NCBI RefSeq assembly: GCF_003073135.1
Contig: NZ_PGDQ01000015.1
Coordinates: 1-64,000, forward strand
Direction: 5' to 3'
Origin: Euzebya rosea
Lineage (GTDB): Bacteria > Actinomycetota > Nitriliruptoria > Euzebyales > Euzebyaceae
Length of the DNA stretch: 64,000 nt
Shown: in pieces, positions 47,457 to 55,095 of the stretch
How positions within the stretch are numbered: the first letter of the stretch is position 1
How the letters are laid out: each line of letters starts with the position of its first letter
Translations under genes and position numbers: made by a program
Notes under the pieces: generated by a model
What the model saw: only the letters and a program-made list of their open reading frames with translations
The model's database searches: none
Told to the model about the DNA's origin: nothing

Positions 47457-47485
47457 TTGCCCGTCCGCGGAAGCTTGTGTATGTT
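47457..47485 (+). promoter_or_regulatory. Vegetative promoter of the ATP synthase operon
   Basis: TTGCCC (47457-47462), a 17-base spacer, and TATGTT (47480-47485), predicting a start near 47492 and a leader of about 70 bases. Confidence 0.75.
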
Positions 47486-47495
47486 TTCACAAGCT
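47472..47495. promoter_or_regulatory. Perfect inverted repeat over the atp -10 box
   Basis: AGCTTGTG-N8-CACAAGCT: two 8-bp perfect inverted arms with the -10 hexamer filling the 8-base centre. This is the placement of a repressor or activator operator. No G/C-rich stem or T-tract makes it look like a terminator. Confidence 0.6.
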
Positions 47496-47563: not shown

Positions 47564-47839
47564 ATGAGCGGATCACCTCTCGATGCCCTCGGGTCGGCCA
47601 AGGCCGACAAGTCCTTCGCATACACCGCCGACCTCCTGGCAGCAATCTTCACCTGGGGTGGAATCGGATTCCTGATCGACCGCTTGGTCGGAACGGAACC
47701 CGTGTTCATGGTCGTCGGCTTCGTCATCGGCAACATCGCCGGCATCTACCTGCTATACATCCGTGCCAAGCAGGCAGACGCTGCGGACGCGTCGATGGCC
47801 GCCCGCTCCGAAGAGGGCACCACTCCACGCAGTCGCTGA
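47564..47839 (+). CDS. AtpZ/AtpI-like small membrane protein
   Basis: 91 residues with two membrane helices: YTADLLAAIFTWGGIGFLIDRLVG and VFMVVGFVIGNIAGIYLLYIRAKQ. This matches the AtpZ/AtpI assembly-factor type found first in many atp operons, with GGIGFLIDRLVGTEPVFMVVGFVIGNIAG as the family hairpin. GAAGG sits about 10 bases before the ATG. It is the first gene after the atp promoter. Confidence 0.85.
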   Translation: MSGSPLDALGSAKADKSFAYTADLLAAIFTWGGIGFLIDRLVGTEPVFMVVGFVIGNIAGIYLLYIRAKQADAADASMAARSEEGTTPRSR

Positions 47840-47890: not shown

Positions 47891-48343
47891 ATGCCCATCT
47901 TCACTCCCAACCATGCTCCCGAGCAGTCGCTGGCCGTTGCCGGCGTGCTCGGTGCGTGCGCTGTGGCCGTGATCGGGACGGTCGTCGCGGGTCTCCTCGA
48001 CGGTGCCGAGGCCGGCGTGGCCGTCGGGTTCGGCGCCGCGCTGGTCGCGGTGCTCTCGGTCGTCGCGATGCCGCTGTACAAGCGTGGGGCGAAGGCGGGT
48101 AACGACATGGTGGTTGCCATGTCCTTGGCGGCACTCGGCCTGCGCGGCATGGTCGCGCTGGTCGTCCTGGTGCTCGTCGCCCAGCTGGGCCTGCTCCCCA
48201 TGAACTCCTTCGCGATCGGCCTGGCCCTCGGCCTGGTCGGTGCGCTGGTGGCCGAGATCGTCGCCGCCGCCCGCGACCCCCGATTCTTCTGGTTGTCCAT
48301 CCCTTCGACCCCACACAGTGACACCGAAAGGCAGCTCACGTGA
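47891..48343 (+). CDS. ATP synthase protein I-like membrane protein
   Basis: 150 residues with four hydrophobic segments: LAVAGVLGACAVAVIGTVVAGLL, AVGFGAALVAVLSVVAM, GMVALVVLVLVAQLGLL and AIGLALGLVGALVAEIVAAA. The topology and place before atpB match AtpI-like proteins (Rv1303-type in Mycobacterium), thought to help c-ring assembly or cation handling. Its stop overlaps the GTG of atpB by four bases. Confidence 0.75.
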   Translation: MPIFTPNHAPEQSLAVAGVLGACAVAVIGTVVAGLLDGAEAGVAVGFGAALVAVLSVVAMPLYKRGAKAGNDMVVAMSLAALGLRGMVALVVLVLVAQLGLLPMNSFAIGLALGLVGALVAEIVAAARDPRFFWLSIPSTPHSDTERQLT

Positions 48344-49161
48344 ACCTCATCCTCGCAGCCGATGCCCACCCGTACGGTGGCAGCTTCGGTGTCCCACCCG
48401 CGGGCGAGATCTTCAACCTGCCGGCGCTGTTCGAGATCGGCGGCCTGGAGATCACCCGTACCTGGCTGATCATCCTCTTCAGCCTGATCTTCGCCTCGGT
48501 CTTCATGCTGATGGCCCTCGGCAACCCCAAGGTCGTGCCGAACAAGCTGCAGGCCGCTGGCGAGTCGGTGGTCGAGTTCGTCCGTGACGGCATCGCCGTG
48601 GACATCATCGGCCCGGAGGGCAAGAAGTTCGCGCCCTTCCTGACCACCATCTTCCTGTTCGTGTTGTTCAACAACATGTTCAAGATCATCCCGTTCGTGA
48701 ACTTCCCGGCGACATCGCGGATCGCGATCCCGCTGATGCTGGCGCTCGTCACCCTGGTCGTCTTCGTGGCCACCGGCGTGAAGTACCAGGGCATCGGCTA
48801 CTTCAAGGAAGTTGCGTTCCCCCCGGGCGTCCCCGCCCCCGTGTACCTCCTGCTCACCCCCATCGAGCTGGTGTCCACCTTCATCCTGCGTCCGCTGACC
48901 CTGACGGTCCGGTTGTTCGCCAACATGGTCGCCGGTCACATCCTGCTGACCATCGTCTTCCTGGCGACCCACGCGTTCTTCCGGATCCCCGGCCTGATCC
49001 CCGAGGACGCCAACATCCTCGGCCTCCCCATCGGGATCCTGACCCTCCTGATCTCGCCGCTCGCGGTCGGGTTCGAGGCGTTCGTCAGCTTCCTGCAGGC
49101 CTACATCTTCGCCATCCTCGCCGCTGTCTACCTCTCCGGTGCAGTCGAGGCCCAGCACTAG
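48340..49161 (+). CDS. atpB: ATP synthase Fo subunit a
   Basis: 273 residues, integral membrane. The proton-channel helix PLTLTVRLFANMVAGHILLTI carries the essential Arg, and the C-terminal GFEAFVSFLQAYIFAILAAVYLSGA is typical. The N-terminus begins MNLILAADAHPYGG and the first membrane segment is TWLIILFSLIFASVFML. The GTG start is coupled to the AtpI-like gene. Confidence 0.97.
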   Translation: MNLILAADAHPYGGSFGVPPAGEIFNLPALFEIGGLEITRTWLIILFSLIFASVFMLMALGNPKVVPNKLQAAGESVVEFVRDGIAVDIIGPEGKKFAPFLTTIFLFVLFNNMFKIIPFVNFPATSRIAIPLMLALVTLVVFVATGVKYQGIGYFKEVAFPPGVPAPVYLLLTPIELVSTFILRPLTLTVRLFANMVAGHILLTIVFLATHAFFRIPGLIPEDANILGLPIGILTLLISPLAVGFEAFVSFLQAYIFAILAAVYLSGAVEAQH

Positions 49162-49240: not shown

Positions 49241-49585
<345 letters not shown>

Positions 49586-50733: not shown

Positions 50734-52356
50734 ATGACTGATCTTTTCAGCGCCGACGACATCTCGGCGATCCTGAAGTCCAAGATCGATGCCTACACCC
50801 CCACGGTGACCAGCGAGCAGGTCGGTCGCGTGGTCGAGTCGGGTGACGGCATCGCCCGCGTGAGCGGTCTGCCCGGAGCGATGGCCAACGAGCTGCTCGA
50901 CTTCGGCGTGGACCACGAGGGGCGCCAGCTCCTCGGCATCGCCCTGAACCTGGACGAGACCACCATCGGTGCGGTCGTCCTGGGTGACTCCTCCAGCGTC
51001 GAGGAAGGCGACCCGGTCAAGCCGACGGGTCGCGTCCTCTCGGTCCCGGTGGGCGACGCCTACCTGGGTCGCGTCGTCGACCCGCTGGGTCGGCCGATCG
51101 ACGGCAAGGGTCCGCTGGACCCCGCCAAGCTGGACGGCCGGCGTGGCCTCGAGGTCCAGGCGGCCTCCGTGGTCGAGCGCCAGCCGGTCGGCGAGCCGCT
51201 GCAGACGGGTATCAAGGCCATCGACGCCATGACCCCCATCGGCCGCGGCCAGCGCCAGCTGATCATCGGTGACCGCCAGACCGGCAAGACCGCGGTCTGC
51301 GTCGACACGATCATCAACCAGCGCAAGAACTGGGAGTCGGGCGACCCCAAGAAGCAGGTCAAGTGCGTCTACGTCGCCATCGGCCAGAAGGGCTCGACGA
51401 TCGCTGAGGTCGTCGCCAAGCTCGAAGAGCACGGTGCGATGGATTACACGACGATCGTCGCGGCTGCCGCGTCGACGCCGGCCCCCTTCCAGTACCTGGC
51501 CCCCTACACCGGTGCGGCCATCGGCAACTACTGGATGTACAAGGGCCAGCACGCCCTCGCGGTGTACGACGACCTGTCCAAGCAGGCCGACGCGTACCGC
51601 CAGATGTCGCTGCTGCTGCGCCGCCCGCCGGGTCGTGAGGCCTACCCGGGTGACGTCTTCTACCTCCACTCCCGCCTGCTCGAGCGTGCAGCGAAGCTGT
51701 CCGACGAGCTCGGCGGTGGCTCCATGACGGCCCTGCCGATCATCGAGACCAAGGGTGGCGACGTCTCGGCGTTCATCCCGACCAACGTCATCTCCATCAC
51801 CGACGGCCAGGTCTACCTCGAGACCGACCTGTTCTTCCAGGGTGTGCGTCCCGCCATCAACGTGGGTATCTCCGTGTCCCGCGTGGGTGGGTCGGCCCAG
51901 ACCAAGCCCATGAAGAAGAACGCCGGCACCATGCGCGTGGACCTCGCGCAGTTCCGTGAGCTCGAGGCCTTCGCGCAGTTCGGTTCCGAGCTGGACAAGG
52001 CGTCCCAGCAGCAGATCGACCGTGGTCGCCGCACTGTCGAGATCCTCAAGCAGGGTCAGTACCAGCCGCAGTCGGTGGGCCAGCAGGTCCTCTCGATCTG
52101 GGCGACCGGTAACGGCTACCTCGACGACGTGCCCGTCCCCGACGTCCGTCGCTTCGAGTCCGAGCTCCTGGCCTACTTCACCAGCCGTCACCCCGACACG
52201 CTGGAGGCACTCAACAACGGCGAGTACTCCGACGAGGTCCAGTCGACCCTGAAGACCGGTGTCGAGGGCTTCAAGGCCACGTTCGTGCCCTCCGAGGTCA
52301 CCGAGGTCGAGGAGAAGGTCACGATGGAGGACCTCGACACCCTGTCGAGCAACTAG
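50734..52356 (+). CDS. atpA: ATP synthase F1 subunit alpha
   Basis: 540 residues. The beta-barrel begins near [25 protein letters not shown]. Walker A is [10 protein letters not shown], followed by [18 protein letters not shown] and [48 protein letters not shown] (the family signature), with the visiting Arg in [10 protein letters not shown]. It has the non-catalytic nucleotide sites. It starts 49 bp after atpH. Confidence 0.99.

Positions 52357-52412: not shown

Positions 52413-55095
<2,683 letters not shown>

Follow-up and report, generated by a model that had tools for sequence, protein, structure and literature searches.

In Euzebya rosea, positions 47475-47492 of the window (the whole stretch of DNA analysed, 64,000 nucleotides) are very probably an operator for Rex, a repressor that senses the NADH/NAD+ balance. 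The site lies over the promoter of the ATP synthase (atp) operon and is conserved in relatives, and across further named genomes it tends to occur with Rex; the genome encodes a Rex protein and carries sister sites before nuoA and nuoE. The initial annotation had proposed an operator over the atp promoter, and this proposal is supported by the conservation, the further genomic sites and the candidate protein. It had also anticipated a dedicated, unusual regulator, and on this point we differ, as the site reads best as an operator of a global redox repressor. Direct control of the atp operon by Rex has already been shown in Streptomyces avermitilis (PMC5355995), and the predicted operator therefore adds one more case to an established Rex target and no novel type of regulation. 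The features are as follows.

47457-47462, forward strand: -35-like hexamer TTGCCC, with a 17 bp spacer to the -10
47472-47495, no strand: perfect 8-8-8 dyad AGCTTGTG-TATGTTTT-CACAAGCT, exact arms read from the sequence
47475-47492, no strand: candidate Rex operator (ROP) TTGTGTATGTTTTCACAA, one mismatch to TTGTGAANNNNTTCACAA
47480-47485, forward strand: -10-like hexamer TATGTT, inside the candidate Rex operator
47564-47839, forward strand: first gene of the operon, AtpZ/ATPase_gene1-like (PF09527, 30.6 bits, cut-off 26.6)
47891-48343, forward strand: second gene, weakly similar to the ATP-synthase-associated Cg1360 family (24.7 bits, below the cut-off of 40), no Pfam match
48340-49161, forward strand: atpB, Fo subunit a
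49241-49585, forward strand: atpE, Fo subunit c
50734-52356, forward strand: atpA, F1 subunit alpha
54763-55095, forward strand: atpC, F1 subunit epsilon
among the genes up to atpC: atpF, atpH, atpG and atpD, read by eye from the ORF list

The inverted repeat is exact, as had been described, leaves 68 bp to the start of the first atp gene and covers the -10 box of a promoter, TTGCCC-N17-TATGTT, that spans 47457-47485. The initial annotation called this promoter good. The hexamers and their spacing are indeed present, and the -35/-10 pair has a constant position with respect to the site in 4/4 genomes of the genus, two of which (our own and G022) are nearly identical in the promoter region; however, the match is modest (8/12 consensus bases), and a scan demanding 9/12 matches found no promoter. 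The -35 hexamers at this place in the genus are TTGCCC, TTGCCC, TTGTCA and TTGGCA. A start site far from the dyad would have spoken against an operator, and within the genus the sole promoter of the form TTG-N16..18-TANNNT in the scanned stretch overlaps it. The start point is predicted at about 47491, so that the dyad would cover the -10 and about the start point.

Taken alone, the perfection of the dyad is unremarkable, because the window holds eight perfect 8-8-8 dyads against a simulated mean of 3.35 and a maximum of 7 (20 first-order Markov simulations). Of 100 shuffled versions of the window, 12 contain at least one match to the letters of the dyad when three mismatches are allowed. The commonness of perfect dyads in the window would fit a chance inverted repeat, or a hairpin in RNA or DNA without a protein partner. 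Nevertheless, the dyad stands above chance because its GC content is 37.5% in a window of 71% GC and because it is conserved at the same place in relatives. Of 23 relatives, 17 keep the core at its position, and controls hardly ever match; TTGTG and TTCAC remain constant amid a variable loop and variable flanks; and most of the core, which overlaps the promoter, would precede the transcript. Chance origin is thus rejected by conservation and not by the perfection of the arms, and we give an accidental repeat or a hairpin practically no credence.

The full dyad, AGCTTGTG-N8-CACAAGCT, has a single exact copy in the 5.5 Mb genome, and so does its core, TTGTG-N8-CACAA. This core is one base off the Rex operator TTGTGAANNNNTTCACAA, a consensus that we took as quoted in PMC5355995. 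Genome-wide, the Rex consensus has 17 matches with at most three mismatches, compared with three for a reversed-pattern control. Only three sites have one mismatch, those before the atp operon, nuoA (PF00507) and nuoE (PF01257), and the two nuo genes, both on contig C13, are further respiratory genes of this genome with a Rex-type site. Each of the nuo sites overlaps a promoter, TTCACA-N18-TAACCT, as read by eye. The 13 sites with three mismatches were inspected in part, and no claim is made for them. Looking for the same dyad elsewhere in the genome, as had been suggested, uncovered Rex-type relatives of the site and no second copy of the full repeat.

A regulator dedicated to the atp operon, as first proposed, could explain why the longer dyad occurs once only. 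It could also account for an A three bases before TTGTG, which is found in 11/18 atp sites of the order and 21/24 named atp sites and is mostly missing from other Rex sites (present in 8/56 half-sites). However, the same core precedes nuoA and nuoE here and ndh2-like and whiB-like genes in relatives. Moreover, the full 8-bp arms occur only in our genome and G022 among the four of the genus; in G023 and G024 the inner TTGTG/CACAA is present without the AGC/GCT pairing. A dedicated regulator is accordingly very improbable.

One clear Rex gene was identified in the genome. The protein matches the Rex winged helix (PF06971, 65.9 bits in a profile search), carries a CoA-binding/Rossmann domain in addition, scores 341.8 bits against NCBIfam NF003992 (cut-off 226) and is similar over its whole length to solved Rex proteins. 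PF06971 alone is slightly loose, as it matches 7/14 control genomes, E. coli included. No site with at most three mismatches lies within the 15 kb surrounding rex (L020), and autoregulation was rejected on this basis. Cytochrome bd oxidase was likewise rejected as a further target, as its gene was not found in the genome. The rex gene (L020:8070-8756) adjoins a gene with an NAD_binding_7 domain (PF13241), a domain of the siroheme-synthase type.

The order set comprised 30 genomes, of which 24, our own included, had an AtpB match, leaving 23 relatives. Conservation in relatives had been named as a check on the operator: a Rex-type site lies upstream of atpB in nine of the 23 with at most one mismatch, in 14 with at most two and in 17 with at most three. 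The reversed consensus gave none, and 53 shuffled half-site palindromes averaged 0, 0 and 0.21 (maximum 4) at one, two and three mismatches. The loop and flanks of these sites are variable. Among 80 named loci, the site was found in 22 at up to two mismatches and in 32 at up to three; many of these are Acidimicrobiia carrying the exact consensus, and most loci from Corynebacterium, Rhodococcus and Bifidobacterium lack it.

Across the named genomes the atp site tends to occur with Rex. For this comparison 50 of the 80 named loci were used, leaving out members of the same order, short upstream stretches and close relatives within Corynebacterium, Bifidobacterium and Rhodococcus; the 30 loci left out hold a three-mismatch site in two cases (L026, L087) and none better. 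At up to two mismatches Rex was found in 21/22 genomes with the site versus 13/28 without it (Fisher p 2.0e-4, shared ancestry ignored), and at up to three mismatches in 28/30 versus 6/20 (p 3.5e-6, shared ancestry again ignored). Five of the 30 sites counted at three mismatches (L033, L034, L042, L043 and L050) are excluded from the two-mismatch count. Within the order the difference, 16/17 versus 4/6, is not significant (p 0.16, with shared ancestry ignored). Some relatives speak against the link: Rex is present and the atp site absent in G012, G013, G017 and G018; G026 (87% complete) has the site and no Rex that we could find. G025 (96% complete) and G015 (83% complete) have neither a Rex match nor an atp site.

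Crp/GlxR boxes have the form TGTGA-N6-TCACA, and the Crp and Rex consensus sequences overlap. The dyad could be a box for a cAMP-receptor-type protein, with atp activated or repressed in response to cAMP. A Crp-type HTH (PF13545) was found in 38/39 genomes searched, our own included, although this is a weak test of presence, as the profile matches 14/14 control genomes. The full Crp core occurs in 11/24 named atp sites. Among a further 28 operator-like sites in the order, 23 hold the full Crp core and 23 the outer T..A of the Rex operator; because each feature is kept in 23, these sites fail to separate the two proteins. One of the sites in the Euzebya rosea genome, ATGTGAACGGTTTCACAT, with two mismatches to the Rex consensus (C8:95019; L019:5020-5037), precedes a gene for an Rpf-like transglycosylase (PF06737, L019:5114-5707) and looks more like a Crp box. 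In Mycobacterium tuberculosis the targets of Crp include rpfA and whiB1, and the place of this site was counted in favor of Crp.

The atp sites themselves speak differently. Although their half-sites overlap with those of Crp/GlxR boxes, they keep the outer T..A and not the left TGTGA: the T..A is retained in 17/18 atp sites of the order and in 24/24 named ones, whereas both TGTGA halves occur in only 3/18 of the order. At the atp site of the window the left half reads TGTGT, so that TGTGA does not stand in both halves. Genomes with a Crp-type HTH and without Rex (e.g. Corynebacterium loci L073, L088 and L099) have no site. Judged by their conserved bases, the atp sites fit Rex better, and a Crp/GlxR box is unlikely here.

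The closest known counterpart of the predicted Rex operator is in S. avermitilis, where the targets that Rex directly binds and represses include atpIBEFHAGDC, nuo, ndh2 and wblE (PMC5355995). At the atpI promoter Rex binds TTGTGATACGGTTCACGA, as seen by EMSA, ChIP and a DNase I footprint, and deletion of rex raises atpI (PMC5355995). The two systems share the operon, the type of 18-bp operator, its overlap with the promoter and nuo as a further target, predicted in Euzebya rosea. The best sites in relatives precede genes for WhiB (L153, L184, L191), NDH-2 (L155) and NuoE (L192), and they support Rex because such kinds of genes are Rex targets in S. avermitilis (PMC5355995). In S. avermitilis the operator covers the -35 and sits between it and the -10 (PMC5355995), whereas the site in Euzebya rosea covers the -10. 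The -10 box sits inside the site, and this explains why the site has TA where the Rex consensus has an inner AA. Unlike in Streptomyces, where rex has an operator nearby, none was found near rex in Euzebya rosea, and unlike in the S. avermitilis system no gene for cytochrome bd oxidase was found.

For S. coelicolor, the consensus is TGTGAACNNNTTCACA, as quoted in PMC5355995. The likeness to its Rex regulon extends to the DNA-binding and Rossmann domains and to the half-site, whereas the main S. coelicolor targets named in PMC5355995, cydABCD and rex-hemACD, are absent or unmarked in the Euzebya rosea genome. Among the matches listed, we found no literature on Rex in this lineage, which is no proof of absence.

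From Streptomyces we infer that Rex binds at the atp promoter of Euzebya rosea, represses it and responds to NADH. When NAD+ is high relative to NADH, a Rex dimer, encoded elsewhere in the genome, would occupy the dyad. There it would cover the -10 and about the start point and keep RNA polymerase off the atp promoter; the predicted operator, over the predicted -10 and conserved in the genus, is well placed for such a block. A rise in NADH would release Rex, and atp and the two nuo transcription units could then be derepressed jointly, such that NADH oxidation and ATP synthesis would be tuned together. Rex is not the sole regulator of atpI in S. avermitilis, because atpI drops under oxygen limitation with or without rex (PMC5355995).

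If these predicted sites function as proposed, direct redox control of ATP synthase, known from Streptomyces, would also operate in a deep-branching class of actinobacteria and, judging by where the site is conserved, in many Acidimicrobiia. The F1Fo operon of these bacteria would then be tied, together with complex I, to the NADH/NAD+ balance.

The position of the site relative to the promoter differs between families. Throughout the genus (4/4) the site lies over the -10 of TTGNCN-N17-TAYGTT. In family f3 (4/4) its left half forms the -35 of TTGTGN-N17-TANNNT, a layout like that of S. avermitilis. In the sister family f2, nine of the ten genomes with the site instead have a strong, conserved promoter TTGACA-N17/18-TAGACT or TAGGCT (upstream of atpB at loci L109-L113, L115, L117, L118 and L123). 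The distance from the start of the site to the start of the -35 is 79 bases in seven of these, 78 in one and 90 in one (L118), the last being one helical turn more, and by arithmetic the center of the site precedes the presumed start at a near-fixed distance of about 106 bp. Between site and promoter there is a TGACCAGCGCAAACG-like box with a mean pairwise identity of 0.80, compared with 0.44 and 0.40 for the flanking stretches (column identities from 7/9 rows, two having been dropped). G015 (L125), in which no Rex was found, has lost the atp site and kept the box and the promoter. The strict f2 arrangement occurs in 4/396 genomes of the phylum, all members of f2, with none for the reversed control; the pattern is narrow and says little beyond f2.

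It is conceivable, though doubtful, that the atp Rex operator stayed in place while the promoter moved, the operator now lying over the -10 in the genus, over the -35 in f3 and about 106 bp before the presumed start in f2. In f2 Rex would then be unable to block the polymerase itself and may work from afar, either activating the promoter or acting jointly with a protein that binds the TGACCAGCGCAAACG box. PMC5355995 describes Rex as a repressor that acts by blocking; if the distant f2 site does work, Rex would have a new way of acting there.

Other atp loci carry related sequences. At L032, L035, L037-L039, L041 and L044, mostly from Ilumatobacteraceae or Acidimicrobiaceae, a variant operator TTGTTC-N6-TTCACAA, or a near form of it, lies upstream of atpB. 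The loci of Promicromonospora and Myceligenerans (L033, L034, L042, L043 and L050) have in common TTGCGCA-N4-GTCACAA, which differs from the Rex consensus at three positions and stands at -184 to -197 relative to atpB, off the usual place; these may be something other than a Rex-type atp site. Within the operon of the window, Fo subunit c (49241-49585) is 114 aa long, and the PF00137 match covers residues 49-112, preceded by a signal-like stretch of about 48 residues.
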